NCBI GenBank assembly: GCA_026770585.1
Contig: MU646339.1
Location: 632,651-660,499, forward strand
Direction of reading: 5' to 3'
Source of the DNA: Baffinella frigidus
Taxonomy: Eukaryota; Cryptophyceae; Cryptomonadales; Baffinellaceae
Length of the DNA stretch: 27,849 nucleotides
The position numbers and the translations under genes are program-made. Under the pieces are notes generated by a model. That model had not been told where the DNA came from. It worked only from the letters and a program-made list of their open reading frames with translations, and did not search any database. Positions 488 to 27,735 of the stretch are shown in pieces (positions within the stretch are counted from its first letter, which is position 1; every line of letters begins with the position of its first letter).

Positions 488-541
488 CTAAGGTTCGCGG
501 TCTGTCAGGCGTGCGGAAGCCGGGTGCGGCGCTGCCTTCAA
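488..541 (-). CDS. Exon e37: candidate terminal exon with stop codon
   Basis: 54 nt after acceptor cctgtag. It reads LKAAPHPASARLTDREP and a TAG stop. It is in phase with e36. The intron before it is about 490 nt and holds a foldback element. Copies of its 3' end lie further left at about 289-311 and 183-203, as for other exons. Identity as the last exon rests on phase, acceptor and stop only. Confidence 0.58.
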   Translation of the reverse strand: MKAAPHPASARLTDREP

Positions 542-3500
542 CTACAGGGGTGACTCGAAATTAAGGACACGCACCGCCTTAGGGCTAGTCCTCGGAGCAT
601 ACAACCACCCTAGGGGCACAAGACCATTATGCTCCGAGGACTGGCCCTACGGCGGTGCATGTCCTTACTTTCGAGTAAGCACTGTACGCTCTGGATTCCA
701 GGAGGCAATCACGCCAGGCGATCTCATATGGAAACACTTATAATTTATAAACCGGATTTCAATCAAAATTACTACACGTTTTCTTCAATATTGCTAGTAA
801 AGATCGTTCTGTGTAGCAAATTTCATTGGATCCAGTTTATAAATATAAGTGTTTGCGTATGAGATCAGGGAGTGGGGTGCTCAGGGGTTCTCGCTAGTCC
901 CGGTCAGCTCCTTGCTTTACACAAAATTGCTTTACAGCAAATCGATGTAGAGTGAAGTTGCTTTACAATAAATTGCTTTACACTAAATTGCTTTACACTA
1001 AATTTCCAATGCAACGACTTTACAAACCTGGGCGGGGAAGTCGTGCGCCGTAGCCTGCTGCCATGCGTCCTCTCGCCGAATCTCCAGCTGTACGGGTTTC
1101 GGGGTTCAGGTTTCGGGTTTCGGGTTAGGGGTTCGATTTTCGGGTTTTCTTTTCTTTTTCTTTTTTTCTTTTTTCTTGATCCAATACCTGGACCCGAAAA
1201 CTGTTTCTTTAGTTTCAGGGTTCAGTTTTCGGTCCAGGTGTTAGATTTCAGGGTTCAGGGTCTGGGGTTTAGGGATTAGGGTTGAGGGCGGGCGACACAC
1301 CATGGCGCCATCCAGCGCTTTCCTCACCCCCGCATCCTCCCCCGTGCTCCTGCCCAGGGTTGCGGTTTAGGGTTTGGGGATGAGGGTTTAGGGTTTAGGG
1401 TTTGGGGTTTAGGGATCAGGGTTTAGGGTTTAGGGTTTCGGGTTTAGGGTTTAGGGTTTCGGGTTTCGGGTTTCGGGTTTAGGGTTTGTTGGGTTTAGGG
1501 TTTCGGGTTTAGGGTTTGTTGGGCTTGGGGTTTAGGGTTTAAGGTTCAGGGTTCATATGTTAGGGTTTGTTGGGTTAGGGTTTCGGGTTTCGGGTTTCGG
1601 GTTTCGGGTTTCGGGTGTAGTGTTTATGGTTTAGGGTTTATGTTTTACGGTTTCGGGTTTCGGGCTTAGGGTTTCGGGTTTCGGGTTCAGGGTGTAGGAG
1701 GGGTCCGAACTGCAAGCTCTCGGCGTGGGAGGGCGGGCGCGGAGGGCGGGGCGCGAGGGTTTAAGGTTTCGGTTTTCGGTTTTCGGTTTTAGGGGTTAGT
1801 GTTTATTGTTTATTGTTTAGGGTTTAGGGTTCATGATTTAGGGTTGGTTGAGTTTAGTGTTTAGTGTTTAGGGTGTAGTCATCAGTGTTTCGGGTTTCGT
1901 GTTTCGGGGTTAGGAGGGGGTCGCACTGCAAGCTCTCGGCGCGGAACGGCGGGCGCGGGGGCGGGGCGTGAGGGTTTCGGGTTTTGGGTATAGGGGTTCG
2001 GTTTTCGGTTTTAGGGTTTAGGGTTTAGGTTGTAGTGTTTGTTGTTCATTGTTCATGGATTTATGGGCTATGGGTTAGGGCGTGGGGCGTAGGGCGTAGG
2101 GTTCAGGGTTCAGGAGGGGGGTCGCACTGCAAGCTCTCGGCGCGGGAGGGCGGGCGCGGGGGGCGGGGCGCGAGGCGCGAGAGCGCGGCGAGCGTGTCGG
2201 GTGTTGTGTCGTGTAGCACCGCCCCCACCTGGACAGGAGAGGTTCAGGGTTCAGGGTTCAGGGTTCAGGGTTCAGGGTTGAGGGACTAGGCTAGAGTCGT
2301 GCGGGGCCGAAGAGCACTGCCCGCCGAGACAAACGTCGAGATTGGGACGGAGTTCCCCGACACAGAAGACACAGAGATGGGAAATCTGAGAGCACATTCA
2401 AGCAAAAACTTTCCAAGCCCTTTCAAATGGCGTTCCTAACTTTTTGAGCGGACTAAAATCGATAATATTTCAGGGGGAAACCTCGAAATCGCCTGGGGAT
2501 TATTTTTTAAAAAGAAAAATACTTATTCCCGGATGAAATTCCTCTATTCAAAACCGCCAATTTGTACATGTAACGCATTCGTGGTGGAATTTGGAGCCGT
2601 GCCTACCGCTTTTCGGTAGGAAACGTGATCAGCTCTCGTACACACCTGGACGTGCGTCTAGAACCGACATTTAAAAAGAGGCCTTGACCCGCCTCGAGTG
2701 GCTACATGAGTAAGGGTGGGGAGCCTGACCGGACAGGGTTAGTACCGGGTGGACACGATAAATCAGCTACAGTCGTACACATAAAGCTAATAATAGTAAA
2801 GCAATCATGCAGGGTGGGGAGTCTCGACCCTGCCCGGTCAGTGCCGGGGGAAAGCGATGCCTCAGCTACAGTCGTACACATCAAGCTAATACTAGCAAAG
2901 CAGTTATGGAGGGTGGGGAGTCTCGACCTCGAACCACCTGGACGTGCGTCTACAACCGACATTTAAAAAGAGGTCCTGAACCGCCTCGAGTGGCTACATG
3001 AGTACAGGGGTACCCAGCTAAAATTGGTACCCCTGTAAGGGTGGGAAGTGTCGACCTTGAGGCGCTTCCGGACGACCGGCCGCTGCGAGTTGAGCCACCT
3101 GCCCGGGGTGTGTCCAACACTCATCAGAGCGTGTCCAACACTCATCAAAGCGTGTTCAGCACACCGCAGGGTGTGTCGGACACTGATCAGAGTGTGTCCA
3201 ACATTCATCAAGGCGTATCCAGCACACCACATGGCGTGTTCCGGACGACTGGGCGCTGCGAGTTGAGCCACCTTCCCGGGGCGTGTCCAACACTCATCAG
3301 AGCGTGTCCAACACTCATCAAGGTGTGCTGGACACTCATAAAGGTGTGCCCGAAACTCATCAAGGCGTGTTCAACACTGATCAGGACGTGTCCGGAACGC
3401 TTCCGTGTGTGTCCATCACTCACCAAGCCGTGTCCACCGCACCTGAAAACAAATCCAACACTCGAAAGAGCGTATCCATCCTCAGAGCGTGTAGGGTTCA

Positions 3501-3764
3501 GGGATTCTAGTCATCAGTCGTACGGGGGACTGTGCTGTACCCGTGGGGGACGGTGGTTTCGGGTTTCGGGTTTCGGGTTTCAGATTTCGGGTTTATGGGT
3601 TAGGGTTTAGGGGCTAAGGTTTAGGGGCTAGGGTTTAGGGGCGAGGGGTTAGGGTTCAGGGTTGAGGGGAACCCGCGGGGGACGGTGGTGACGACAGGTT
3701 CGACGGTCTTGGTCTCGAGCATCGCTGTCGAGTACCGCAGCACCCGCGGCACCTTCGCCTGCAA

Positions 3765-3853
<89 letters not shown>

Positions 3854-6800
3854 TGATGGAGGAAGTACAGCTGAGCGGGACTGCAGAAAACCGTTTTCAC
3901 CTGTAGCCCGTACGGCACCTTCGCCTGCAATCAGTGTTCGTGTTGGTTAGTACCTCAACTAACCAACTGGTTTGATTGTTCTCTGGTTGTTCAGCCAACC
4001 GTCGTCGTCACCGCGCCTCTGAGGAGTGTCAGACACTAGCACGTACAACTCACAGTACAGCGAACTAGTACCACGTACAGCACCCGCGGGACCTTCACCT
4101 GCAATTATTGTTCGTGTTGGTTAGTAACCGTTGGTTAGTAACCATTACTAACCGTTGGTTAGTAACCAATCACGCCATTCAAGCTGAGTGCCCAAACCCC
4201 CAAACCCTGAAACCCCATACCCCAACCCCCCCACCAGAAACCCCACACCCCAATCTCAAGACCCTAAACCCCAATCTCACGAACAACATCAAGACTCACG
4301 GAAAGGGTACCATCGCCCGCTCGCCCTTTGGGCAAACGCTGAGCGATTTCATCTCACAACGTACCAGAATCTGTCCACATTAAAAGGCGTAAGATAGCAT
4401 CATTGTATGCCTAAAATAGCATATACACCCTTATCTTCGGCGTCGGAAGCCTAAGATAGCGGGACAGAATCTGTCTTGTTCCGAAATTAGATTGACCCGA
4501 CGGCAGAGAGAGCCCAAACCCCAAACTCCATACCAGAAACCCCACCCCCTACCCCCCAAACTGCAGAGGAAACGCACCTTGGCTCGCTCGCCCTGGTCGA
4601 AGCGCTGGGCGATCGACCCGACAGCAGAGTGCGCGAAGGCCTGCACCGACCGGTCGATGATCTTGTCCAGGAGCACGTCCACGATTCCTGCGGGATTGGG
4701 AGGTTCTCTTAATTGTTAATAGTTAATTGTTGGGCTTCAAAGATTGAAGAGCATGTCAACAACCCCTGCGGGTCGCACCACAGGTCAAAACCCAGATTTT
4801 TAATGTTGAGGCTCCCTACGTTTGAAAGCGTTTCCTGGCACACACGAAACATTCTTGCGCCCAGGAGTGGTTGCATTTGAGGAGTGCGCCAAGGCTAGCA
4901 CCGACCGGTCGATGATTTTGTCCAGGAGAACGTCCACAATCCCTGGCGGAGGGTTTGGGTTTATGGTTTATGGTTTAGGGTTTGGGGATTCTCGATTGAT
5001 TGTTGGGGGTTGGAGGTTAGGGTTGAGGGGTTTGGCGTTTGGGATTTGGGGTTTGGGGTTTGGGGTTTGGGGTGTGGGGTTTGCGGTTTGGGGTTTGGGG
5101 TTAGGGGTTAGGGGTTGATGGTTTGGGGATTAGGGGTTAGAAGTTCTAATTCATCTGTTCACAGGGTTTCTCGCTACCCAGTCAATAATTTGCCTTATTT
5201 GCCATAAACATTGACTTTTGGATAATCCCCGAAGGGCCCTCCGTGGTGCACAGTGAAGAGTGCGTACCGGGGTTGTCGCTCGTGCCCCACATGATCTCTC
5301 CGATCAACCCTTCGGCCATCTCTTCAAAGTCCTCCTGTTTGGGGTTTAGGATTTGGGGTTTAGGGTTTGGGGTTGGGTTTTTGGGTTTTGGGTTTTGGGT
5401 TTTGGGTTTTGGGTTTTGGGTTTTGGGTTTTGGGTTTTGGGTTTTGGGTTTTGAAGATCCGGGTTTCGGGTTTATGGTTTCGGGCAGGGCTGAGACCTGC
5501 ATGGAGTTGATCTTGTTGACGAGCGCCTCGCGCTTGTCCCCCGTGGGCTTGAGCACCTGCGATGCGGGAGTTATGGTTAGGATTGAATGATTCGGGGTTA
5601 GTGATTCGGGATTCGGGGTTGGGGAGTTGGGGTTAGGGGTTAAGGGTTAGGGGTTAAGGGTTAGGGGTTAGGGGTTAGGGGTTAGGGGTTAGGGGTTGGG
5701 GATTAAGGTTTAGGGATTAGGGGTGGGAGATTCGGGATTCGGGATTCGGGATTCGGAATTTGGGATTATGGTTCAGGGTTTAGAGATTGGGGATTAGGGG
5801 TTCGGGATTTGGGATGCGGGATTCGGGATTATGGTTAAGGGATTAGGGATTAGGGATTAGGGATGAGGCATTAGGGATGAGGGATTATGGTTGAGTGATT
5901 AGTTATCAGTTATTAAGGGATTAGGGTTTAGAGTTTAGGGATTAGGGTTGAGGCGCACCGTCTCTCCGGGGATCGCGACGGGCCGCAGCTCTAGGCTTTA
6001 GAGTTTAGGGATTAGGGATGCGGGATTAGGGATTGGGGTTTCGGGATTCGGAATTCGGGATTCGGGATTAGGTTTTAGGAATTAGGGATGAGGGAAGAGG
6101 GATTTTGGTTTAGGGATTACGGTTTAGTGATGAGTGATTAGTGATTAGTGATTAGTGATGAGGGTTTAGGGTTTCGGGTTTAGGGCTTAGGGTTTAGGGT
6201 TGAGGGTGGCGCACCGTCTCTCCGGGGATCGCTACGGGCCGCAGCTCCTTCCTTACGATGCCTTGCGCCTGTTCGGCATCAGGGTTTAGGGGTAAAGCTC
6301 CAGCCTCGATCTGAGCCACTTCATAATTTCTAGGGGTTAGGGGTTTCGTCACGGAAGCGTCGAGCTCTGTTCACACTTTTTTGGGACCTGAAGCGGATCA
6401 AATCCCCTCTACGCTCACCCCTTTTGTTGATCATCTTGGCGAGTTGGTCCGAATGGTCCTCTCTTCTGCCTCACTCGGGTTCACCGACTATCCTCAAGTC
6501 GACATGCTAGGTTCCCGGTACAAATCCGTCAACTTTGGCGCGGGAAAGAGCCCGGGCTCGCCAAATTGGAGAGCCCACACAGACTGAGACAGACCACGCC
6601 AGAGGGCTCGAGGAAACCGACTGTCTTATCCGAGCCAGATCTGGCTAAAGTGACTTTGGAATCCTTCGGGCTTCCGCTGAAAGATGTCAAAAGTGGATAT
6701 TTCGAGCCCTCTGGCGTGGGACCTGGACGATCTTGGCGAGCTCGGTGCGGTTGGCAGACTTTTCATAAGTTGACATGCTGGGTTCGTGGTACAAATCCGT

Positions 6801-9800
6801 CAACTTTGGCGGGGAAAAGAGCCCAGGCCACTTAGCAGCCACCGGGGGCTTCCCGGACACAGTCCATCTAAACGATTTGGACTAGAATCTTATCCATTTG
6901 CATTGGATTATAACCGCATTTCCCCCTAATATCCGGGGGGAAAGGAACTCGGCCGCTGCTAAGTGGCACGCCAAATTGGTGAGCCCAAATCAACCTGGAC
7001 GATTTTGGCGAGTTCTTTAACGTCGAAGTCCGAATGGTCCTCTCCGTCATCGAACCTGGGTTAGGGTTTTGGGTTTTGGGTTTTGGGTTTTGGGTTTTGG
7101 GTTTTGGGTTTTGGGTTTTGGGTTTTGGGTTCAGGGTTTAGGGTTTAGGGTTTAGGGTTTAGGGTTTAGGGTTTAGGGTTTAGGGTTTAGGGTTTGGAGT
7201 TTAGGGTTTAGTGTTTAGTGTTTAGTGTTTGGGGTTTGGGATTTGGGGTTTGGGGTTTGGGGTTTGGGATTTGGGGTTTGGGGTTTACGCGTGTTTCTTG
7301 GCGTCCACGGGGTTGGCTAGCTCGTTGTGCACCTGAGGTTATGGGCCCCGAGGGTCAGGTTATGGGCCCCGATAGGTTATGGTCCCCAATTATCCCGAGA
7401 GTCAAGTTATGAGCCCTGAGGGTCGGGGTTCGAGCCCTGCGTGCGACAGTTGGACAGACCAGCGCGTTTTCTTGCGCGAAACGCCGCAGCGTCCCGTGTT
7501 ACGTACACACCCAGCCCGGTCCGGTCCGGGTTCACGAGGGTGCAGGGTTTAGGGTGTAGGATTTGATCATGTGTTTTTGGACGCCCCTAAAATCACACAC
7601 TCCTGGGTGTTAGAGCGCGGAATCCAAAGGGTCTGGGCGCGGACCTGGCAGGCGAGGACCGTGGAGGGTTTGGAAGGGTTTCGGGTGTCGGGTTTGGGCG
7701 AAACCCTCGGCGAGGACCGGGTAGGGTTTGTGAGGGGTTTTCGGGTTCGGGCGAGATTTTCCAGGGGATTAGGGTTAGCGAGGGATGTTTGAGGGTTTGG
7801 TCGAGGGTTCTTCGGGTTTCAGGGTTTGCGAGGTGGTTTTAGAGTGCGGGCGATGACCTCGAGGGCGCGCCAGCGGTCGTTCTCCTTCCCTTCGCGCCCC
7901 TGCACCTCGTGCAATCCCAGCAGCCCCATGAACGACTGCAGCCCCGCCCCTGCAGAGTGGGGTTTGGGGGTTACGGTTTGGGGTTGCCCCGCCCCTGCGG
8001 TTTGCGGTTTGCGGTTTGGGGGTTACGGTTTGGGGGTTACGGTTTGGGGTTTGTGGACTCATGACCTGTTTGATTTGGGGGTTTGGGTGTGGGGTGTCGG
8101 GTTTGGGGTTTGGGGTTTGGGGTGTGGGGTTTGGGGGGTTTGGGGTTTGAGGTTTGGGTTATGGGGTTTGGGGATTCGTGTTTTGGGCTTTGGGGTTTTG
8201 GGTTTTGGGGTTTAGGTTTTGGGTTATGGGGTTTGGGGATTCGGGGTTTAGGGTTTCGGGTTTCGGGTTTTGGGTGGGTACCGCGGTTGACGAGATCGGC
8301 AGACGTAAGGGGCTTCTGCAGGCCGGGCATGAATATCACCATGCACCTGGTTTCAGGTTCCGGTTTTTGGGGTTCAGGTTTCGGGTTCCAGGTTTTGGGG
8401 TGCAGGTTTCGGGTTTCGGGTTCCGGGTTTCGGGCACCGGGGTTTCGGGTTTCAGGTTCTGGGCCCACGCCAGGTCATAAGTGGAATTTTCATGAACACT
8501 CGTTCGCGCTGAAAGTGATTAGATGGCTTATCGTGGCACAGATTCTTAAAATGCCGCATAGCAAGGGCTCCAATTCCCAACACTGTTGTGGCATGTTTCC
8601 CGGGTAGAATCAACTTTACTCGAAGATCTTGAGTAAAAGGAAATTTCGACTTCTGACCTGGCGTGGTTTCGGGCTTCGGGTTCTACGGTTTCGGGTTTTA
8701 CGGTTTAGGGTTAAGGGATTAGGGCTTAGAGATTAGGTTTTAGGTTTCAGGTTTTGTGGTCTGTGGTTTGTGGTTTGTGGTTTGTGGTTTGTGGTTTGTG
8801 GTTTTGGATTTCGGATTTTAGGGTTTGGGTTTTGGATTTTATGGTTTTAGGGTTTGGGGTTTACTTTGCTGCGTACTTGAACGACACCTCTCTCTTCTCC
8901 TTGATCTGGAAAGAGCGGTTTGGGGTTTTGGGTTTGGGTTTTGGGTTTTGGGTTTCGGGTTTCGGGTTTTGGAATTAGGGTTTGGGGTTTGAGGTTTTGG
9001 GTTTCGAGTTTCGATTTTCGGATTTCAGGTTTCGGGTTTCGGGTTTCGGGTTTCGGATTTCGAGTTTCGAAAGTGTTCGTCGCTGCAGTCTTTTGAGTGC
9101 CCCCCCTGGTTAAGGTAGCTCAAAATGCCTCGCTATAGGGGAGAAGTACGGACATCGGTTTTCTTGTAGACGTATTGGCGGATGGCGATGGCACGCGCGG
9201 AGTTTCCGAACGCCTTGAGGATGTTGTTTCTGTCGATCACACGCAGTCCCAGCCTTTCCACGTCGCCCTCCTGTTTGGGGTTTACTTGGGGTTAGGGGTT
9301 AGGGGTTAGGGGTTAGGGATTAGGGGTTAGGGGTTAGGGGTTAGGGGTTAGGGGTTAGGGGTTAGGTGTTAGGGGTAAGGGTTGGATGATGTTGTTTCTG
9401 TCGAACACACGCAACCCCAGCCGTTCCACATCGCCCTCCTGTTTAGGGTTTATTTGGGGTTAGGAGTTAGGGGTTAGGGGTGAGAGGATGTTGTTTCTGT
9501 CGATCACGCGTAGCCCCAGCCTTTCCACGTTGCCCTCCTGCGCGCCCGAGTGATGGCAACCACGTCAGCATTGCCACGTCAGCACTTCAGGGTAAGACCT
9601 AGTTGCCCAACGCCTTGAGGATGTTGGATCTGTCGATCACGCGTAACCCCAACCGTTCCACGTCGCCCTCCTGCGCCCGAGCGAAGTGCCACGTCAGCAT
9701 TGGTGTACTTCTTTAACGTTTTTGGGGGGGTTAAGGGTTCGAGGATGTTGTTTCTGTCGATCACGCGTAACCCCAGCCGCTCCATGTCGCCCTCCTGCTC

Positions 9801-12800
9801 GCTCGAATGGCCACGTCAGCAATTCAGCATATGTTTCCGGGGTTCGGGTTTCGGGGTTCGGGTTTCGGGATTCGGGTTTCGGTTTTAGGGGAGGGCTCGG
9901 ACGTCTTCGAGGATGGTGATCCGGGGTTTTGGGTTTCGGGTTTTCGGGTGTAGGGTGTAGGGGTCAGGGTGTACGGTTTCGGGTTTAAGTCTCGGATGAT
10001 GGTGAGGCCTGGGTCGGGCGGAAGAGGGGGTTGTTCAGGGTTTAGGTTTTCGTGTTTCGTGTTTTCGGGTTTCGGGTTTTCTTGTTTTCGGGGTTCGGGT
10101 GTAAGGGTTTCCGGTTTAGGATTTTCGGGTTTGGGGTGAGAGGTTTCGGGTTTGGGGTGTGAGGTTTCGGGTTTCGGGCCTCGGGTTTGGGGTTTGGGGG
10201 GTGAGGTTTGGGGTTTGGGAGTTACGTCCTCGGAGACGGTGAGGCCCTGGGTCGGGAAGAAGAGGGGGTTTGTCATGACCTGGTTCAGGGTTCAGGGTTC
10301 AGGATTTAGGGTCTAGGGTTTAGGATTTAGGGTTTGGGGTTTGGGGTTTGGGATTTAGGGTCCAGGGTCTAGGGTTCAGTTTTTGGAGTTTGGGGTTTGG
10401 GGTTTAGGGTTTGGGGCTTGGGGGTTAGGGTTTAGGGTGTACCCGCGCCCAGATGCTGCGGAAGCGGTTCATGTCCGCCGACACTCGGAACCCCACCTGC
10501 AGTGCGTTTTGGGGTTTAAAGCTTAGGGTTTAGGGATCAGAATTTAGGGTTTAGGGTTCAGGGTTTAGGGTTTAAGGTTTATCCTGGGGCTTGCGTCCGT
10601 TGCCAGATTCTGGAGAATATTAATTGGGACTTGCGGGACGTCATAGTGTAGAATTTGTGTAGTAATTTTCGTTCGAAGATTATGAAACAAAAACAGCTTT
10701 CCCCGGATTAGGTTAGGGTACATCGTAGCCGAGGGTACATCCGCGTGGTTCAGTCAACAGTCGTGGGAGTTTATTTCCTGAAACCTAACCAATAAACCAT
10801 AAACCATAAAGCCCAAACGCCATAACCTGAGCCCTCGGGACATCTGAGCTGTCGGCAAGCCGCTCCCCACACAGCGGGCTACGAAGGGATTTTCGGGTGC
10901 TGAGCACCCGAGTTTCCGTTTCCTTATTCGTAGGAACCCCTCTATGACCCTACGGGTTGCCTACCGTAGGGTCCTAGGTCTGATCGCTTAGGGCTTATCC
11001 GAAATCCCTTCGAAGTCCGCTGTGTGGAAGTCCATCTCGGAAGATAGCTGAATCAATTCATTTCCACTAGGAGGTTGCATAGGAGAAATTAGTTAGGGCA
11101 AAGTAAATTTAATTAGGCGTTCCAATTAAATGAAAACGCTACTAGGGAACCGATTCATTCATCTTTCAAGATGAAACTGGACGGAGGTTGTTAATGTTGT
11201 TGTACCCGGACCCTGAGTCTATTCGGTCTTACCAATCTCATCTCAGAACATACCAGAATATGTCCACATAAAAAGGCGTAAGACAGCATCACTGTATGCC
11301 TAAAATAGCATAGACACCCTCATGTTCGGCGTCGGAAGCCTAAGATAGCGGGACAGAATCTGTCTTGTTCCGTAATCGAATCTGCCTCACCCGGGGCCTT
11401 TCCCGTTCCAAAGTCGACGAATTGGTACCACAAAACCACAAAGTTCATAGGCCAACGTCCTGAAAACCGGGTAGTTAGGCATACGGTGGTCCAACCACAC
11501 GGTGGGCTTCGAGGGTTTCGTTGACTCCGGATTCCAGGGTGTTACGTGGCCAATTTGCATTAGAAAAATCCTTAAAGTTAATTGTCTTCAGATAAGTTGA
11601 CTTTTGATGAAAGGTTCGTAGTCCACCGTGTGGACTCGACGAATTTGCACCACACAACCAGAACGTCAACTTAAGAACAGTCAAGCCGGGTTGAGGTTTT
11701 TTTATCGACCACCTCAGGGCCTCAGGGCCTATGTCCGGACCTGTATCGAGAGTGACCACTCGGAACACTACAGAGAACATTCTAAAGTTAATTATTGCAT
11801 TGTTTCTTAAGGAAACATGCCAAAAGTCAGCAATTTTTGTCACGTTATCCCCGGATATCCGGGGGTAATGAGATCTGTAGTCTCCCGATTAGCCACTTAG
11901 CAGCCACCGAGGTCTTCACGGATGCAGTCCATCTAAACGATTCGTACTAGAATCTTATCCATTCGCATTGGATCCCAACCGCATTTCCCCCGAGAATCCG
12001 GGGGACAATATCTTCAGTCGCTGCTAAGTGGAAGACGGGGCAGAGAGGGGTTGGGGTATACGTCGGAGCCGTTATCCGCAAGACGTTCCATAAGTGGCCG
12101 GAGATTGTCGATATTCGTGTAACCCGAGCCTGAGTCGTCAAACTCGGACCTGTTTCCAGATTTTGGGTTTAGATTCCAGCAAAGAAAATTACTACACGAA
12201 TGCTACATTACTACACGAATGCGTAAATTACTACACGAATATTTTAGTATTACTAGTAAGACCCGCTTGCGTAGTAATTTTCGTTGCCATAAAAGCATAA
12301 ATTTAATCGATTCTCGAGGTTGTCGATATTCGTGTAACCCGAGCCTGAGTCGTCGAACTCGAACCTATTTTCAGGTTTCGGGTTTCGACTTGATCTACGA
12401 AAATTACTACACGAATGCTATACTATTACTAAATTTAACCCCGCCCGGCTTTCGGGGTTTAGGTTTCGGGTTTAGGGATTGGGGGTTAGGGTTGAGGGAT
12501 GATTTCGGGTTTAGGGATGATTTCGGGTTTAGGGATTGGGGTTTCGGGGTTCGGAAGGACGCAGCCACGGACTTGTTCTCCGGCCCAGGGTTTCGAATTT
12601 CGGGTTTCGGGTTTCGGGTCCAGGGTTGCGAGAGAGGGGCGTGACCAACTGAGAGAGTAGAGCTCGCACGCGTCCCGTTTCGGGTTTCGGGTTTCGGGTT
12701 TCGGGTTTTGGGTTTCGGATTTTAGGGGTTAGGGCATAGTGTTGCGATGGAGGGGTGTGACCAAGTGAGGGAGATAGTTCGGTTTTCGGGTGTATTGTTT

Positions 12801-15800
12801 AGGGGTTGGGGTATAGTGTTGCGAGAGAGGGGAGTGACCAAGTGAGGGAGTAGAGTTCTAGGGTTGCATAGTGTTGCGAGAGAGGGGTGTGCCCAAGTGA
12901 CAGTGTGACCAAGTGACAGAGAGAGGGATGTGACCAAGTGAGAGAGTAGAGTTCGGGTTTCGGGTGTAGGGATTCGGGTTTCGGGTTTCGGTTTTCGGTT
13001 TTCGGGTTTCGGGGTTAGGGTAAAGTGTCGCGAGACAGGGGCGTGACCAAGTGAGGGAGTAGAGTTCGGTTTTCGGGTTTCGGGTTTCGGGTGTAGGGAT
13101 TCGGGTGTAGTGTTTAGGGGCTAGGGTAAAGTGTTGCGAGAGAGGGGAGTGACCAAGTGAGGGAGTAGAGTTCGCACGCGTCCGCGTTGAACAGCGACTG
13201 CACGTCCACCTGGTGAATAGAGGGCCCCTTTTAGGTGTATAGATGGCCTCTTTTAGGTGTATATATGGCCCCTTTTAGGTGTATATATGTCCTCTTTTAA
13301 TTATGGAAGCAGCAATCCCGTTGCAGTCCGCGTTGAAGAGCGACTGCACGTCCACCTGGCGAATAGATGGTCGTTTATATGGGGGGAATGGTGTATAGAT
13401 GGCCGTTTATATGGGGGGAATGGTGAATAGATGGCTGTTTATATGAGGGAAATGGTGAATAGATGGCCGTTTATATGGGGGAAATGGTGAATATATGGCC
13501 GTTAGTATGGGGAGAATGGTGAATAAACGGCCGTTTATATGGGGGAAATGGCGAATAGACGGCCGTTTATCTTCGTGTGCGTTGTATACTTAGTGATATA
13601 TGACTCTGGGTAGGTTCCTCGAAAGGCCATCTTCATCTTCTCGAGTGACCACGCCCACCTGGTGAATAGACAGCCGTTGATGTGGGGGGAATGTTGAATA
13701 GATGGCCGTTTATATGGGAGAAATGGTGAATTTATAGCCGTTTATATGGGGAGAATGGTGAATAGATGGCCGTGTACGTTTTATACTTAGTGAAATATGA
13801 CTCTGGGTAGGTGACTGTCTAGAGCATCTTCTGCTCTCGCATCGCCTCCCTGAATCTATCATACGGGGGGCAGCAGCCGTTTATGGGAAGGAATGAGCCG
13901 TTTAGGTGAATACGGAGCCGTCTAAGCCGCTCAAAAGGCTCCGGGGTACCGTCCGCCCCGGATATCCTGGGTAACGTGACCATTCCCCGGTACAATTTGG
14001 ATCCTTTTCTTCGGTTGTCGCGACGAAGAGGGGCAGCATGCCTCACTCAGGAGGCAGAGCTAGGCGAACCTGAAAATGGGGGCGCTGGTGACTAGAGATT
14101 GCCCTTCTGTCGACTGGTTCTTGCTACAGCCACCTCCTAGCTCTGCCTCACTCGGGTTGACCGACTATTCTCAAGTTGACAGGTTGGGTTCGCGGTACAA
14201 ATCCGTCAACGCTGGAGCATAACCCCCCCCTGGCGCAACAAATTGAGAACCCCAAATATACTGGGACAGCTAATGGTTCGATTCGAACGCACCTGACTCT
14301 AGAAGAAGTAACAGTTATTTCGTGCTGGTCACGGTTTTTAATTCCCGGTTCAGGGTTTAGGGTGTCTGGATTCGGGAGTCTTCTATTCGTCAACTTTTGG
14401 ACCCGGAGTTGACTTTTGGACCTGGGATGCGAAGAAAGAGTCGATGAGGGTAGCGACGAAGAGGGGGAGATTTCCGTTACCTTATCCGTAGGAACCCCCC
14501 TATGTCCCTACAGAACTGCCTACCGTAGGGCCTAGGGACTATTCACTAAGGGGTTATTCAAAGCCCCTTCGAAGTCCGGTGTGTGGTTAGGGGGTCTGTA
14601 TTAGGACCTGGGATTCGAAGAAGTAGTCGATGAGGGTCGCGACGAAGAGGGGGAGCATGCCTCATTCGGGTTGACTGGCAGACTATTCTCAAGTTGACAC
14701 GCTGGGTTCGAGGTACAAATCTGTCAACTTTGGAGCGGGATCGAGCCCGCGCTCAACAAATTGGTGGGCCCCAAAAGACTTAAAGACTAAAAAAAACCCG
14801 GGCCCACCAAATTGAGAACCCCAATAGACTGGGACAGCTAGTGGTTCGATTCGTCAACCTTTGGACCTGGGATTCGAAGAAGTAGTCGATGAGCGTCGCG
14901 ACGAAGAGGGGGAGCATGCCTCGCTCGGGTTGACCGACTATTCTCAAGTTGACAAGTCAGTTCACACGGAATTTGTACCAACTTCCCGAAATTTGGATTT
15001 TTCTCTGGGGAGAATGTCACCTTATGACCTTTCAAAACCCTGGATTCCAGGGGTTTTCCTGTAAGCCATTCAGCCCTACACTCTTGGGTGATAGTGGTTC
15101 GATTCGAACGCACCTGGGATTCGAAGAAGTAGTCGATGAGGGTCGCGACGAAGAGGGGGAGCATGATGAAGTTGCACCCCGCGTAGTAGAGGATGAAAAA
15201 CACGTACGCTATCTGCCCCATCCCTGGTAGCGCGTTTGGGGTTTGGGGTTTGGGGTTTTGGGTTTGGGGTTTGNNNNNNNNNNNNNNNNNNNNNNNNNNN
15301 NNNNNNNNNNNNNNNNNNNNNNNNNNNNNGGGGTTTGGGGTTTGGGGTTTGGGATTTGGGGTTTGGGGTTTGGGGTTTGGGGTCTAGGGTCTAGGGTTTA
15401 GGGTTTAGGGTTTCGAGTTTAGGGTTTCGGATTTAGGATTTAGGATTTAGGATTTAGGATTTAGAGTTGATGGCCTGTCCCCCGCGCGATAGAGGGGTAA
15501 GTACCCGGTTTCGGGTTTCTGGTTTCGGGTTGAGAGTTTAGGTCTGAGGGTTCAGAGTTTAGTGTTTAAACGTTTTGGGTCTAGGGTTCATTGAAATCGT
15601 TTCGGGTTCCGGGTCCCGGGTCTCGGGTTCCGGGTTCCGGGTTCCGGGTTCCGGGTTCCGGGTTTTGGGTTTTGGGTTCCGGGTTTCGGGATCCGGACCG
15701 CAGTTGGTGGTGAGGTGCGCGTCCCCCTTCGGGAGGTACGGCGTGTCCGTGCAGTAGGGCTTATTCAGGGTTTATTCAGGGTTTACACAGGTTTTATCTA

Positions 15801-18800
15801 GGGTTTATCTAGGGTTGAGGTTTTTTTATCTAGGGGGTTTTCAGGGCTTAGGGTTTATTCAGGGTTTATTCAGGGTTTATTCAGGGTTTATTCAGGGTTT
15901 ATTCAGGGTTTAGGGTTTATTCAGGGTTTATTTAGGGTTTATTTAGAAGGTTTCGGGGTCCGGACCGCAGTCGGTGGTTATGTGCGGGTCCCCCTCCGGG
16001 AGGTACGGCGTGTCCGTGCAGTAGGGGTGCGAGACCGAGGCGTCGTAGAACAGGTCAAACCACCTGAAAAAAAATGGTCAAAATAACTGGGTAAACAAAG
16101 AAATGGACTGGCAAAAAAAGAACTGGAGAAAAGAACGCCCTTTACTGAATACATAATGTAGAAATGGTGTCCGTGCAGCAAGGGTGCGAGGCCGAGGCGT
16201 CGTAGAACAGGTCGAACCACCTGCAATTTGTTTTTTGGGATTAACGAAGAATGGCTCAGATTTGGCCATATCTAACGGGAAATGACTTAGGTTTGGCCAT
16301 ATTTAACGGGAAATGACTTAGATTTGGCCATTGTTTCCCTGTGTGGAGGGGTGCGAGACCGAAGCGTCGTAGAAGAGGGTGAACCACCTGGGGAAAAAAA
16401 AGAAATGGTCAAAAAAATTGGCAAAAAACTGGAGAAAAGAACACCCTTTACTGAATAAATAATGTAGAATATTGATATGTCCGTGCAGTAGGAGTGCGAG
16501 ACCGAGGCGTGGTAGAACAGGTCGAACCACCTGCAAAAAAAGAAATGGTGAAACCACCTGCGACGGGAGAAAGGACGCCCTTTACTGAATGCAGAATGTA
16601 GAAATATTGAATGTTGATATCCTGACTGAATGCAGTATGGGTGCGAGACCGAGGCGTAGTAGAAGAGGTCAAACCACCTGGGGGGAAAAGAAGCGGTCAA
16701 TCCACCTGCGGTGTTGAGGGATGAAGGTTAACGAGAAATGGCTTAGATTTGGCCATATTTAAGGGGAAATGGCTTGAATTTGGCCATATTTTCCATTGGT
16801 AGCTGTGTGGATGGGTGCGAGACTGATGCGTCGTAGAAGAGGTCGAACCACCGGCGGGGTTTGGGGGTTGGAGTTTGGGGGTTGGGGTTTGGGGTTTGGG
16901 GTTTGGGGTTTGGGGTTTAGGGTTTAGGGTTTCGGGTTTAGGGTTTAGGGTTTAGGGTGGAGGATTTATGGTTTATGGTTTAGAGTTCAGGGAGAAAAGG
17001 ACGCCATGTGCTGAAGAATGTAGAATATCTATATCTTGACTGAATCTTTGGGGTTCGGGTTCGAGTTCAGGGTTTAGGATTTAGGGTTTAGGGTTTAGAG
17101 TTGAGGTTTTAGGGTTTGGGGTATAGGGTTCAGGGTTGAGGTTTGAGGGTTTGATTTTATGGTTTATGGTTTAGGGTTTAGAGTCTAGGGTTTAGGGTTT
17201 AGGGTTTAGAGTCTAGGGTTGAGGGTTTAGGGTTTATGGTTTACCCGTCTCCAGTCGCCACGCGGAACAGGAGGAGAATCGAACCGGACATTGTCTCGAA
17301 GTTCCAGCGGTCGGTGATCACCTGTTGAGGGTTTCGGGTTTCGGGTTCGGGGTTTAGGGTTTGGGGTCTGGGGTTTGGGGTTTGGGGTTTGGGGTTTGAG
17401 GTTTGGGGTTCAGGATTCAGGGTTTAAGTTTTAGGGTTCAGGGTGTGGGGCTAAAGTTTTGGGTTGTAGGGTTTGGGGTTTGGGGCTTAGGGTTTAAGGT
17501 TTAGGGTTTAGGGTTTATGGATTAGGGTTTAGGGTTTATGGTTTATGGTTTATGGGTTATGGTTTATGGTTTATGGTTTATGGTTTATGGTTTAGGGATT
17601 AGGGATTAGCGTACCTTGCCATGCTTGATGTGCTCAAACATTTGCTTGTCCGTCCTGTTTCAGCGTGCAGGGTTTAGGGTTTAGAGTTTAGGGTTTAGGG
17701 TTTAGGGTTTAGGGTTTAGGGTGCAAGGATTTAGGGTGTTGGTGTTGGAACAATCGTTTTCGGGCCTAAATAATCGTTTTCGGGCTCAAACAATCGTTTT
17801 CAGGCTTGAGAGGTGTAATGAGGGGCAGACGGTGTCGCTCAACTCAACTCTGAAGGGCCGATCTAGGACCTGTATCGAGAGTAATAAAGAAGAAGACGGT
17901 ACCCGATAGAAGCGAAGATGAAAATCCAGAAGGCACCACTAGGTTCCCGCGCGAAAAGGATGATGCGATGTCAAACGTTGATGCAAAACACGATGCCAGA
18001 AGTTGATGATGCTGGTGCCAAACCGTCAAACATTTGCATTGTACCCGATTGAAGCGAAGATGAAGATCGAGATGGCAAGGAAGAAGAGCGCCGAGATGAT
18101 CGACGGGATCGCGCCAAGCAGCGTCCGAAGCCCCCCCCCCAAGATTTCCGGGGAAATTTCCGGGTGGAATCCATAGCAACGGATAGGATTCTAGTACTAA
18201 TCGTTGAGATGGAATGTATCCGTGAAGTCTCCGGTGGCTGCTACGTGGTCCCTAGACGGGCCTACCAGGACTTTCCACGGAAGGATCAGGTGGCCGTGAA
18301 CGCCCGCGTGACCGGTCACGCGGACGCCGAAGCCAACTGTCCGAGGTGACTGCCTTGGCGTGTTCCTTCCTATGGAACAGGCTATGGCGGGATTTGCATC
18401 AAACCTAACGGTCCTAAAAGAGGAAATTTAGCACACAAGTGGCATGAGGGAGGAGGCGGTACCCGATAGAAGCGAAGATGAAGATCCAGATGGCAAGGAA
18501 GAAGAGCGCCTGGTGTAGGGTTAAGAGTTTAGGGTTTGTGGTTTAGGGGTTGGGGTTTAGGGTTTAGGGTTAGGGTTTAGGGTTTGAGGTTTAGGGTTCA
18601 GGGTTTAGGGTTTGGGGTTTAGAGTTTAGGGTTTAGGGTTTGAGGTTTAGGTTTTCGGGTTTGGGGTGTAGGGATCATGACCGAGATGATGGACGGGATT
18701 GCGCCGAGCAGCGTCCCGATCATTACCTACGGTCAGGGGTCAGGGTTTAGGGTTCAGGGTGCAGCCCCCCCCCCCCCCCGATTATACCTAACATCGGCAA

Positions 18801-21800
18801 AATTCAGGTTGGGGCTGTGGTCAATTTTAGTTCATTTTGAACAAAATTGCACCGGTGAAAGAGGTGTAAAGAAAGCCTCGGCGCCGAGCAGCGTGCCGAT
18901 CATTACCTACGGTTCGGGGTTAGGGTTTTGGGAATAGCCACACAGCGGACTTCGAAGGGATTTTGAATAACCCTTAAGCGATAAGACCTAGGATCCTACG
19001 GTAGGCAACCCGTAGGGGTCGTAGGGGGGTTCCTACGGATAAGGTTACGGAAACTCGGCCCATTTTGGGCCGAAAGTCCTGTCGTAGCCCGCTGTGTTGG
19101 GTGAAGGGTTTTCCACCCCAATCATACCTAACACCGCCAAAATTTAGAATGGTGTTGTGGTCATTTTATCATTATTTCAATATTGCACCGCTGAAAGAGG
19201 TGTAATCTTCGGCGCCGATCAATCATCACCCGAGTTTAGGGTTTAGGGTTTAGGGTTTAGGGTTTAGGGTTTAGGGTTTAGGGTTCATGGTTCAGGGTTT
19301 CCGATCGCTGCACTGAAGGGAAATATTTCATGCCAGGAAGGGACACACAGCACATGAGCAAAATTGTGCAACTTCCAACTTCGTTCCATCTGCGCCAGAA
19401 GCTTCTGGAATCCGCTCCCCACCTTTCAAACCGGCTCCCGACTTTTGAAATGGCTAACCACATTTGAAACCGACTCACCACTTTCGAAATCGTCTCACGC
19501 CTTTTTAAACAAATTTGGTACAGGCCTTTTTGTGTGAGACGGGAAAAAATTATGTGCAGGCCTTTTTGTGTGAGATGGACCTGCAGGGTCTTGATCTTCT
19601 TCACAAGACGGAAAATGCGGAGTACGCGCAGCAGCTTGAAGAATGAAAGGTCAGGCCCGTCTTTCGGCAGCAGCCATCTGAAAAACGAAATTTCAGGGCC
19701 GTGTTTTGGTAGAATCCACATGAAGAATAAAAGGTCAGGGCCGTCTTTCGGTAGAAGCCACCTGCGACGAGAACGGAACGTCAGTTTTCGCTAACCACAC
19801 AGTGGACTACGGACCTTTCATCAAAAGTCAACTTACCCTGTAGATTGTTAACTTGAAGGATTTTTCAATGCAAATTCTGGGGTTCCACTTCAGGTTCATC
19901 CTAAAATCCAGCCCCAACGAAACCTTCGTAGCCCACCGTGTGGTTACACCACGCCAGATTCTCGGAAGAGGTCGCCAAAAGTCAATTCCCCGGACGGAAT
20001 GTGAGGAGATCGTGTACTTTTGGCATAGTTGAACGCCACAGTTGGCGTTCCCAAAGGGAGCTACCCCCTCCAGCAGTCTGGCGTGGTGTGTTTCGGGGGT
20101 GCGCCTCAACATGCCTGCTGAATCTGGGGTCCAGCAGTCTGGCGTGGCACACGCTTGCACGTCGAAAGGTCAAAGCCGTCTTTCGTTCGCACACCACGCT
20201 AGACTGCAGTCTAGCGTGGTGGGACACGGTCCCGTTCTCCCCCAGTCAGATTGCCTGACTATTCTCACGTTGACGGTTCTGAGTGTGTGGTGCAAGGCCT
20301 TCTCGGGTGGGAATGCATCCCCTTGCACGCATACAGGTCAGAGCCGTCTTTCTTCACTGGTTGTAGGTACCTGACTCCGTAGACTAGCATATAATTTGGG
20401 GTTTGGGGTTTATGGGGTCTGACCCGTCGACGACGGACATGAGGACGACCAGAAAATCGAACGAGTTCCACGCGTCTCCGAAGTACGGGCTCCAGTACCG
20501 GATTTTCCCCTGGGTGAGGGTTTGGGGTTTGGGGTTTGGGGTTTGGGGTTTGGGGTTTGGGGTTTGGGGTTTAGGGTTTAGGGTTTAGGGTTCAGGGTGT
20601 GGGGTGTGGGGTTTAGGGTTTAGGGTTTAGAGGTCAAGGTTTAGGGTTTAGGGTTTTGGGTTTAGGGTTTAGGGTTTATCTTCCCCTGGGATACAGGAGT
20701 GCAGGATTTGGGGTTTAGGGTTTAGGGTTTAGGGTTTAGGGTTTAGGTTTCAGGGTGTAGGGTGTAGGGTGTAGGGTTTAGGGTTTAGGGTTTAGGGTTT
20801 AGGTGGACCTGGGGGGTGTCTGGAAAGCGCTCCCAGTCGACCACCCCGAACGAATACAGCTTCGCAACCTGAAAGTTGACGGTTTAGCACCAAACTATGC
20901 CAAAAATTCACGGTTTAGTACCAGCACTTTCCACCAAACCCGCCCGCCGAGCCCCCGAACGAATAGAGCTTCGCAACATGAAAGTTGACGGTTTTCGTAC
21001 CAATTTAGCACCAAATCATGCCATGGTTCATTCAGGGTTTATTCAGGGTATGTTCAGGGTTTTTTCAGGGTTTTTTCAGGGTTTATTCAGGGTTTATTTA
21101 GGGTTTATTTAGGGCTAGAAGGGTCTGGAGGGTGTCTGGGAAGCGCTCCCAGTCGAGCACCTCGAACGAATAGAGCTTCGCAACCTGAAAGTTGACGGGT
21201 TCGTACCAGTTTTGTACCAAATAACGCCAAAAGTTCTGAAAGTTGACGGTTTAGTGAAAGTTGACGGTTTAGTACCAGCAACCTGAAAGTTGACGGTTTC
21301 GTACCAGTTTAGCACTAAACCATGCCACAAGTTCTGAACGTTGACGGTTTGGTGAAAGTTGACGGTTTCGCACCAGTTTAGCACCAAATGGTGAAAAAGT
21401 TTTGAAAGTTGACGGTTTAGTACCAGCACGTTACCTGAAAGTTGACGGTTTAGTACCAGCAACCTGAAAGTTGACGGTTTAGTACCAGCCCTTTCCACAA
21501 ATCCCGCCCACCGAGCCCCCGAAGGAATAGAGCCTCGAAACCTGTTTGTCGGGGGGACGCGGTTGACTGAACCGGGCGGCGTTTGTACCAGGGATTTGCT
21601 CGGTTAGGATCTGGGTGTGGGAATTGGGGGCTAGGGGTTTAGGATTTAGGGCTCATCATTGATGGTTTAGGGTTGACGGACTACACCGTTTCGACCGTGT
21701 AGTAGAGTGGAGGGTGGAGGATGGAGGGGGTCGGGAGTAGGGTTTAGGGTGTCCGGCGCAGATGCCATGAAAGTGGTGACGGGGCTGTACCGTTTCGACC

Positions 21801-21852
21801 GTAGTCGATAGATAGATAGATAGATAGATAGATAGACAGATGTATCGATAAA

Positions 21853-21897
<45 letters not shown>

Positions 21898-21904
21898 GGA
21901 TCTA

Positions 21905-21947
<43 letters not shown>

Positions 21948-24900
21948 ATCTATATCTATCTATCTATCTATCTATCTATCGATCGATCGATCTATAAATA
22001 GATGGATGGTCAGGTGGATGGATAGATAGATGGAAAGATGGAGAGAGCACCGTTTCGACCGTGCAGACTGTGATCGCGGGTTGACAGACTATTCTGAAGT
22101 TGACACTCTCGGTTTCCGGTACAAACCCGTCAACTTTCGAGTTGAGTTGACGGGTTTGCACCGGAAACCGAGAGGGCTGCGCACCGTTTCGCAAATTCGT
22201 CAACTTTGGTCGACAAATCCGTCTACTTACAAATTCGTCAACTTTGGAGGGCTGCGCACCGTTTCGACCGTGTAGACGACGATGAAGAAATTATCGATGT
22301 ACACTTTGACCTCCACGTATATGTTCGGCGCTGGTGTTTGGGGTTTAGGGTTTAGGGTTTAGGGTTTGGGGTTTAGGGTTTGGGGTCTGGGGTTTGGGGT
22401 TTGGGGTTTAGGATTTAGTTTTTAGTTTTTAGTTTTTAGGGTTTAGGGTTTAGGGTTTAGGGTTTAGGGGTTAGGGTTACCCGTCAAGTCCTCGGTCGCC
22501 ATCCAAACGGTGTTGATGATGATCAAACCGTCAACTTCTGAGTATGCTGACACTAAACTGGTACTGAACCGTCAACTTTGGAGTATTCTGGCACTAAAAT
22601 GGTACCAAACCGTCAACTTTTGAGTATGCTGGCACCAACCTGGTCCTACACCGTCAACTTTTGAGTATGCTAGCACTCAACTGGCACCAAACCGTCAACT
22701 TTTGAGCGTGCTAACACTCACCTGGTACCAAATCGTCAACTTTTGAGTACCTGGAAAGTGCTCGGTCGCCATCCACACGGTGTTGATCACGATTACGGCC
22801 TGGTTTGGGGTTCAGGGTTTAGGGTTTGGGGTTTAGGGTTTGGGGTTTAGGGTTTAGGGGTCAGGGTTTAGGGTTTAGGGTTTAGGGTTTAACCTTAGGG
22901 TTTAGGGTTTAGGGTTTAGGGTTTACCATCATGATCGAGTCGTAGGTCGAGTCGGTGAGGACGTTGTACAGGAACTGCCGAGCGAGGAAGTGATTCAGTT
23001 TTCAAGGATTAAAAAAAAAATCGCCTGCATTCTCAGGGAAATGGACTTTTAAAATGAAAAAGCCGGGACCGGATTTCCGGTCCTGGCTTTTGAATGAAGC
23101 CTGTGTTGCCTGGAAAGCGGAACTGCGCAAGCACCAAACGCAAACGGGTTAGGCTGAGCGCTCAACACACGCCAAAAGTCGATTGTGCAAAGAAGTTCTG
23201 GGTTATTCGCCAAAAGTGGCCGACTCGTGGTACAGATCTTAGAAAGACGTCTGACCGAATCGTAGTTCGGATCGCCACTCGAGAATTCTAGAGGGACCTG
23301 TCTACATGTGGGGTTGTAAAACTTTGTACCAGGATAAAGTGTTCCAACCTCGTAACCGGCCTAACCAGGGCTTCAGCGGCTCCAAGGGCAATGAAAGTTT
23401 CTACACAAATGCTACACATAAAATTTTCTTGGTTTTAAATAGGCCCCTCTTGCATTCTCGTGTGGCGGGACCGCCCGCCCGTGCTGGCAGGATATTTTCA
23501 ATTTCATCTCGAAAGATAACTGAATCAGTTCCCTGATTAGAGCCATTAATTTAATTAGGGGAGGGGGCCTTATTAAATTTACTACGCCCTTACTAATTTC
23601 TCCTATTCAACCTCCTATTGAAAACGAGCTGATTCAGTTATCTTCCGAAATTCGGGGACGAATCCAAAAATCCTACCAGTCGTGTCCAATTTATGGATGC
23701 CAAAGTGCCCATCGCCCAATCCATTTGCCCCCTCAGACATGACCACGGCCAATACGCATTTCAGCGTCTGCATCCGGGGTCACATTTGCGGGTCTGAAAA
23801 CGGGGTGACGCCACCAACAAAAGTCAACTTGATAACCAAAAGTGAACTTGGTGACTTTCGCACCTTGCGGACAATCTGCACGGGGATCTTGGGCTTGGCT
23901 TTGAGCGAAAGTCTCTGCATCGTCGCGCCTGTCGCCCACCTGCAATTTTTAGGGGTTGGGGTTTAGGGTCAACGAAATTTACTACACAATTTGTCAACGA
24001 AATTTACTACACAATTTGATCATACAAGTAATAGTAAAGCGCTCGTGTAGTACATGTCGTTAGCGAAAACCCTTTTTTTATCTTTATTTAAAAATGATTG
24101 TCTGAGAAGGACGGACATGTCCCAGCTCTGTCTCAGGCAAATTGGGCCCCTCGTGGGCTGGCTTTGAGTGAAAGTCAGCTCTGTCGTGTTGCCTCGGGGG
24201 AGGCGACACGAGACAAGAAGATACCGAAAGGTCACCTACCCAGAGTCGTATATCACCGAGTATACAACGTGTACTAAGAAAATTGGGCCCCTCGTGGGCT
24301 GGCTTTGAGAGACAGTCTAATTTGCATCGTTGCGCCTGTCGCCCACCTGCATTACCAACCCCGGTTTAGAGGGGGAACGTTTTGGGTTTGGGGACCGATT
24401 TGTAGTACGATTGGCCACCCGAGTGTGAGCATCAATCCCGCATTCCGGTGTGCCTTACGGTAGGGGGGGGTACCCGATACAGTCTCTCTCAGGGCAGGGA
24501 CGCACCAGATGCGCTGGTTCTCGGTGTAGAGCGCGGTCCCGGACTGGCGCCGGATGTTGTCGATCAGGACCTGTACAGGTTACGAGCATGGGGTGTAAGA
24601 AAGCGCCAACGTGACCTCTCTCTACAGGGGCACCTTGCTGATAAGAAACCGCCCCCCCCCCCCTAGGACCACCGTAGGACCCTAGGCATAGGCCTACTGT
24701 AGGGTTCTATGGGGGGGGCGTTTTGGTATGAGCGAGGTACCCCTGTACCGCGGTGGGCCCATCTTAAGGCTCATAGACTTTTTGGATCACGCATCTCCAG
24801 GCGTGTCACTTAGCAGCCACCGGGGCCTTTTGGAAATCGGCCCATCTAAAAGATATGTCATCTGAAAAGCTAACGCCAGCGAGGTACTTAGAGCCTACCT

Positions 24901-27489: not shown

Positions 27490-27735
27490 GTTTGGGGTGT
27501 ATGGTTTAGGGTTCAGGGCTTAGGGTTTGGTAGGGTTTAGGGTTGGGGTTTCGAGATGAACACCCCCAGCCCCTTCTGAATCCGGGTTTTGGGTTGACGG
27601 TTTTGGGGTTTGGGGCTTGGGGTTTGGGGTTTGGGGTTTAGGATTTGGGGTTGAGGGTTTGGGGTTTAGGAGTTTGGGTTTGGGGTTTAGGGTTTAGGGT
27701 TTAGGGTTTAGGGTTTGGGGTTTAGGGTTCAGGGA
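27490..27735. repeat. TTTGGGG/TTTAGGG array
   Basis: Upstream intron of e1, interrupted by the e1 5'-end copy. The last 110 nt (27736-27849) show only two GCATGATCGC motifs. Confidence 0.9.
27555..27575 (-). repeat. 5'-end copy of exon e1
   Basis: Encodes KGLGVFI with acceptor attcag, upstream of e1; a telomere-like block separates it from e1. Confidence 0.7.

Follow-up and report, generated by a model that had tools for sequence, protein, structure and literature searches.

The window, a stretch of 27,849 nucleotides on contig C37 (C37:632651-660499) of the 382-Mb, 1364-contig assembly of Baffinella frigidus (Cryptophyceae), carries a voltage-gated cation-channel gene on its minus strand. 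The gene model comprises 33 exons of 29-123 bases each, with GT-AG at all junctions and a single open frame of ~780 residues; its exons run from 27484 down to 3673, where the initial annotation had counted about 37. Pfam Ion_trans matches the S1-S6 part of the joined minus-strand channel-domain protein (E 3.6e-47), and the best of 118 PDB sequences is an N-type calcium channel (1e-46) with its best stretch at 1476-1711, which we take to be the fourth repeat. The model begins mid-protein; a search of the adjoining 40 kb (partly N) did not reveal the 5' part of the gene, and tblastn with the 5' half gave 0 matches. At the other end, no exon was confirmed between 488 and 3660 during gene-model building, though a public protein, P0007 ('hypothetical protein T484DRAFT_1770346 [Baffinella frigidus]'; 100% identity to the query over 12%), extends beyond e33. 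Aligned to the second half of the model, P0007 is identical in 381 of 439 columns, the other 58 being gaps, and it holds four stretches (19, 10, 12 and 17 residues) that duplicate adjacent sequence and have no counterpart in the 33-exon model. These residue repeats at copy sites are probably gene-model errors. It is noted that 14 of the 33 exons start with GT, as in proto-splice sites, compared with a GT share of 5.5% among coding dinucleotides. The window also holds simple arrays of GGTGTGT (1-129), GA-rich sequence (207-487) and TATC/GATA (21807-21995).

Copies of exon ends in the introns of this gene are a confirmed observation. When every exon was locally aligned with the remainder of the window, 35 copies reached a strict score cut of >=37, above every null score (best 36.5 on the reversed window, 29 on the antisense strand). 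Of these, 34 lie in an adjacent intron, on the sense strand and head to tail; one copy of e13, joined to a copy of e14, lies beyond the next exon and was counted apart. Among the 19 upstream-intron copies, 17 begin within 3 bases of the exon 5' end, one is a whole exon and one is interior, and among the 15 downstream-intron copies, 11 end within 3 bases of the exon 3' end, one is a whole exon and three are interior. The initial annotation had proposed that, almost everywhere, 5' copies lie only upstream and 3' copies only downstream, to be judged by how often copies fall on the wrong side. No upstream copy with only a 3' end and no downstream copy with only a 5' end was seen among the strict 35 (0/35), and the side rule stands. 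It follows from geometry and needs no special mechanism, because a junction-spanning duplication that leaves the exon intact obeys it.

At the strict cut, anchored copies lie on the side predicted by the rule for 14 of 33 exons, with 5' copies of e4, e6, e10, e12, e13, e17, e19, e20, e23 and e32 and 3' copies of e14, e17, e18, e19, e22 and e29; e8 is added by a copy spanning bases 7-44 of its 49. A looser test per intron compared 45-base exon ends with 61 reversed or shuffled introns (p<0.02) and found 15/33 five-prime ends upstream and 13/33 three-prime ends downstream, for 22/33 exons overall. The claim that at least 20 exons have copies holds at this looser level and falls short at the strict one. 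Wrong-side calls in the looser test numbered 7 and 6, ten of these 13 in exons of <=61 bases, where both 45-base ends overlap, and the rest in e20, e6 and e23. Of the copies tested, 19 of 22 five-prime ones retain the acceptor AG, and 14 of 15 three-prime ones the donor GT; the decoy splice sites described earlier do exist as sequence.

All exons and copies are on the minus strand. Exon e17 (15966..16063) is preceded by an array of five 5' copies in 16167..16851 (at 16851, 16677, 16530, 16387 and 16220, with identities of 35/39, 44/47, 50/53, 36/41 and 50/54 in that order), in which part of the intron is repeated too, and is followed by a 3' copy with donor at 15699..15759 (56/61). Four 5' copies with acceptor precede e23 (9154..9270) in 9385..9794 (at 9794, 9670, 9537 and 9438; 47/54, 60/70, 50/54 and 48/54). 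Downstream of e18 (S6, 15114..15223) lie three 3' copies with donor in 14422..14918 (at 14918, 14659 and 14469; 51/52, 52/52 and 44/48), plus a partial copy at 14017-14040 (23/24). The initial annotation had given the same numbers for these three exons, with three to four copies for e18. Exon e19 (13154..13209) has a 5' copy at 13326-13355 (29/30) and, in 12646..13068, five matches to its 3' end with donor (19/20 to 31/34, one below the strict cut), spaced 77-113 bases apart, with a TRF period of 106 over 12919-13174. At e12 (S4 voltage sensor, 19581..19677, inside the Ion_trans match), two 5' copies form a 42-base tandem at 19679..19760 (36/40 and 30/40, the second scoring 35; TRF period 42).

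Both kinds of copy occur at e4 and e32, as annotated, with weak 3' copies (scores 35 and 32). For e4 (S6 helix, 25315..25437) these are a 5' copy with acceptor at 25834..25893 (48/57 over exon bases 1-57, with 22 intron bases aligned too) and a 3' copy with donor at 25173..25194 (20/22, below the strict cut); for e32 (4578..4687), a 5' copy at 4882-4940 (53/59) and a 3' copy at 4315-4347 (27/31). Both kinds had also been claimed for e33 (3673..3758). Its 5' copy at 4078-4096 (18/19) scores 34, below the strict cut, and the 3' kind appears only in the looser test (29.5); the three copies claimed for e9 come down to two at score 32, again below the cut. Exon e10 (20809..20868) has a whole-exon upstream copy at 21125..21184 (55/60), which has lost the donor and kept 24 intron bases, and a 5' copy at 20943..20977 (31/35). 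Further 5' copies belong to e6 (23864..23939; copy 24292..24346, 47/52), e13 (18682..18726; copy 18881-18906, 25/26) and e20 (12062..12149, with the same residues in P0007; copy 12316..12364, 46/49), and further 3' copies to e14 (S5, 18463..18509; copy 17903-17935, 31/33), e22 (10226..10279; copy 9991-10037, 41/46) and e29 (6215..6268; copy 5959-5991, 32/33). The downstream copy of bases 7-44 of e8 (S1, 22751..22799) lies at 22486..22523 (34/38). For e1 (pore-loop start, 27403..27484), a copy of exon bases 2-21 at 27555-27574 (19/20) scores 36, below the strict cut, and passes the looser test (p<0.02).

Homology of several copies continues past the splice site into the intron, for 65 bases at e20, 50 at e23, 24 at e10, 22 at e4, 19 at e14 and at least 54 at e19, with rows that overlap themselves left out; the copies are therefore DNA-level duplications. 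In others the homology ends 5 or fewer bases from the splice site, namely in the e6 copy (5) and two e18 copies (2). Tandem arrays span a junction at e17 (spacing 143-174 bases), at the e19 3' copies and at e12, and in a masked self-comparison the e17, e19 and e23 arrays include intron sequence. Spaced pairs with other sequence between them are also present, such as a 114-base duplicate of e20 at 215-base spacing and one of 64 bases at 255 for e32. The intron homology and the junction-spanning arrays support the earlier suggestion of serial tandem duplications across splice junctions. Tandem duplication of a full exon with both splice sites is not the pattern, only 2 of the 35 strict copies being whole exons and one of these (e10) lacking the donor.

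Two dispersed elements also occur in these introns. One, of ~160 bases with inverted-repeat ends, lies at 25923-26081, 18938-19100 and 10866-11027, with a part at 14471-14587, and looks like a MITE. The second, in introns I4, I9, I18 and I28 (25047-25163, 22075-22141, 14144-14780 and 6465-6828), adjoins exon copies in I18 and I28.

In exons with at least two copies, changes private to a copy fall on codon positions 1/2/3 as 24/21/30 (129/128/129 columns; chi2 1.68), and changes private to the exon as 2/2/10. The e19 multi-copy alignment is partly misplaced, and the copy-private counts without it are 18/15/27. From this evenness it follows that the copies drift without clear coding constraint and that the exon stays constrained; the stranded copies mostly decay as non-coding DNA. 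Raw mismatches between exon and copy are third-position heavy (39/26/96 of ~585 each), an excess that would come in part from silent changes of the exon counted against several copies and that is larger than a rough neutral estimate. Retention of the splice dinucleotides is close to the neutral-drift prediction by a rough estimate. Two cases point toward coding use. Starting at the acceptor at 19761, both e12 copies run open into e12 itself in the phase of that exon, and copies of this kind may be translated. In the relative P0004, three in-frame repeats of a 16-residue unit occupy the position matching the 5' part of e11 (score 148, shuffles <=34), and partial copies in frame can apparently become part of predicted proteins in this family. 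Internal repeats above shuffles were found in none of P0001, P0002, P0003, P0005 and P0006 (5 of 6 related proteins).

The copy of e13 beyond the next exon has a different structure. At 18126-18041 in intron I14, e13 (from base 11; 32/35) and e14 (45/47) are joined at their splice sites and followed by GTAC, with I13 absent, whereas in the gene the two exons are split by I13 (18510..18681). Telomere-like heptamers make up most of the 172 bases of this intron (the tract fraction is 0.59 to 0.65 with two patterns). Either I13 was gained after downstream duplication of an unsplit exon, or partly spliced RNA was copied back. Gain of I13 would be the more economical route and agrees with the side rule, both routes being conjectural.

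Telomere-like tracts, which are simple repeats, recur across the introns and show a strong orientation. On the sense strand of the window introns (3759-27402), 358 C-strand heptamers (counted as CCCTAAA, CCCCAAA, CCCGAAA and CCCTAAC) stand against 10 G-strand heptamers. In other loci whose strand is set by matched exons, the sense C:G counts are 159:5 and 134:4 (C23), 113:8 (L037), 87:0 (C13) and 172:2 (C65). The bias is weaker in L036 and L038 (22:13 each), and L039 holds both orientations; heptamer orientation, rather than matched exons, was the basis for assigning the strands of L028-L030 and L035 and for splitting L039. These counts cover gene loci, the random intergenic control loci being all or mostly N. 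Because of how the pattern is defined, the matched tract lacks AG and GT, and its other strand would have 52 AG and 122 GT per kb; a natural reading of the one-way filling is selection against decoy splice sites. Three consecutive units of the telomere-type repeat TTTAGGG occur 53120 times in the assembly, with contig positions pooled, versus 27 for the reversed pattern, and runs of a telomere-type unit stand at internal sites as in interstitial telomeric sequences. A link between the copies and abutting tracts was rejected, with tracts at 5/16 strict copy-bearing junctions versus 25/64 of all junctions. A genome-wide donor signature of GT at the tract start also finds no support: the genome has 511 GT-form matches, and in the window and the fetched loci, respectively, the G form (7 and 16) is not commoner than the A form (24 and 33) or the T form (8 and 20).

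Other genes of the assembly were examined through 18 exon matches in fetched loci, from chaperonin PF00118 (9 of 10 matches, the one on C1202 lying outside the fetched 10-kb stretches) and dynein PF12774 (9 of 9). Exon ends are not known there, and sides were judged on the matched stretch. Local copies accompany 4 of the 18 matches, and all four fit the side rule. Downstream of one dynein match of 156 bases lie copies of its bases 23-155 and 95-144; two chaperonin matches have downstream copies of 104-129 of 132 and of 69-123 of 123, the latter match ending in a stop; and a third chaperonin match has copies of 2-38 and 17-52 of 117 upstream. Two further matches yielded alignments scoring 34 and 38, internal to the matched stretch and >2 kb away. 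Another (C23:1299730), still counted in the 18, has only telomere-like, low-complexity matches, and the remaining 11 have no local copies. By a separate observation, two HSP70 matches at C709:130108-134621, each unbroken over 1824 bases, with equal scores and in opposite orientation, contain no intron across the domain, in contrast to the channel gene. When duplicates were classified without annotation in 12 other loci (13 regions), 69 families emerged, of which 33 are not coding-like; 30 lie on the expected side, 5 on the wrong side and 1 is unclear (p 2e-5). The coding-like classifier is weak, calling 13 of 24 window families where the annotation has 16 of 19 in-gene families touching an exon (under different limits), and it places 2 of the 24 on the wrong side (e8 versus its copy, and e14 versus the joined e13+e14 copy).

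We consider it probable that serial short DNA duplications across exon-intron junctions, in this gene and in others, explain the copies. The duplicates would be ~30-200 bases long, either purely tandem or with other sequence between the copies, and may arise from breaks repaired by fill-in and end-joining. When a duplicate spans an acceptor, the inner copy would continue into the complete exon and the outer 5' end with its AG would be pushed into the upstream intron; when it spans a donor, the downstream intron would be left with the exon 3' end and its GT. Since the exon itself stays whole, such duplicates would survive, from which the side rule would follow. The spliceosome would presumably use the intact exon, and the stranded copies then mostly drift as non-coding DNA.

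Another process may suffice, namely uniform random local duplication throughout the genome, in which exon copies are the recognisable ones and selection purges duplicates inside exons. Under it the side rule is automatic, the copies drift neutrally, and no targeting of junctions is involved. It is also consistent with the similar density of duplicates in the gene (19 families in 18.0 kb) and in the other loci (69 in 70.7 kb), and with the 4/18 matches bearing copies elsewhere, close to the 2-3 that a hand estimate predicts from random duplicates at the local density and not clearly lower than the 14/33 here (Fisher p 0.23, computed with 4/17). However, the channel gene has 16 exon-linked and 3 intron-only families, one of the latter (6828/6557) resembling the dispersed elements, whereas placing length-matched segments at random gives a ratio of 0.106 exon-linked families to one intron-only family. 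With detection power for exon-linked and intron-only families of 0.93 and 0.78 at 10% divergence (0.87 and 0.40 at 15%), the expected exon-linked share is ~0.11 at 10%, and 16/19 has a binomial p of 4e-13, into which ascertainment enters since the window was chosen for the pattern. In the unselected loci 36/69 families look coding compared with 1358/4054 random segments (p 0.001), a weak contrast from a blunt test; the coding-like background is 0.33 there and 0.10 in the window introns, and the other loci therefore hold more coding-like sequence. Some targeting, retention or ascertainment lies behind the 16:3 excess over random placement, and we take junction targeting to be likely in this gene and no more than possible across the genome. 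Purely random duplication is possible but somewhat doubtful.

The other explanations have less in their favour. The copies could be kept for function or translated, as longer or alternative exon ends or as spare splice sites. The splice dinucleotides kept in 33/37 copies, the open phase of the e12 array, the in-frame triple repeat of P0004 at e11 and the four repeat-like stretches inside P0007 would agree with this. Against it, copy-private changes are even over codon positions, 8 of 44 copies have gaps relative to the exon, P0007 is a prediction and P0004 is known from a 1637-base contig. That the copies are generally kept as coding sequence is weakened by this evenness, with the e12 array and P0004 as possible single exceptions, and a functional origin is unlikely. 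For RNA-mediated copying, in which partly spliced pre-mRNA is reverse transcribed and pasted beside the exon, the joined e13+e14 copy without I13 is the natural evidence, and under duplication across junctions that copy needs an extra step. Yet other copies extend past the splice site into intron sequence, and no second two-exon copy joined across a tract was found in the window and the 12 loci, where the other matches passing the filter are low-complexity heptamers; we regard this origin as quite improbable. An assembly artefact might be suspected from the 56 N bases in the window and its N flanks. It was set aside by the divergence of the copies from their exons, up to ~25% and in some cases with indels, and by the presence of copies on other contigs, and is extremely unlikely.

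Short duplications across junctions remain the preferred reading. A further step, which we put forward tentatively and hold to be rather doubtful, is that break-and-fill events aimed at junctions, together with sense-C-rich telomere-type inserts, could give rise to new introns in this genome, with I13 as a birth beside its empty site. The inserted tracts, free of AG and GT and rich in CTAAA, would be spliceable introns; young introns would be pure heptamer tracts, and older ones would lengthen by junction duplications.

Models of intron birth and lengthening rest on few clear cases. If junction-crossing duplications are frequent, they leave datable fossils beside the intact exon, and the process becomes countable. 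The copies may also mislead gene prediction, as the example of P0007 suggests, and the single orientation of the telomere-like tracts that fill the introns is a regularity of its own, so far without explanation.

Among the open-access papers listed, judged by titles and the starts of abstracts, none describes a gene with so many junction copies. Introner elements, which are dispersed introns of near-identical sequence, tie duplicated target sequence to introns. The Rogers AGGT model, as outlined in PMC4974935, does so as well. In contrast to both, the copies here carry existing splice sites and generally lie away from the opposite intron end. The strict 5' copies mostly have a preceding AG and stand away from the previous exon, and the 3' copies are followed by GT; the arrangement of AGGT gain, with the start of the next exon at the intron start and the end of the previous exon at the intron end, is not seen among the strict copies. 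In potato, one tandem duplication spanning an intron-exon boundary of the RdRp gene is reported to have created a new intron, whose splicing was demonstrated by RNA-seq (PMC4974935). One event is described there, whereas a single gene here holds dozens of copies on acceptor and donor sides; the potato intron is spliced, and the present copies are known from genomic sequence. Small tandem duplications are reported to arise from breaks with 3' overhangs through CST-guided Pol alpha fill-in and end-joining (PMC8355091), which gives short direct duplications like those seen here and is a plausible source of them, though the abstract of that study deals with break repair rather than splice junctions. 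Interstitial telomeric sequences are described as inserted at double-strand breaks, with duplication of the flank in few horse loci (3/66 as simple duplication) (PMC7215372). The present telomere-type repeats are likewise at internal sites. The human share in introns is given in that report as compatible with random insertion, whereas in the channel gene the tracts fill introns and keep one orientation relative to the gene.
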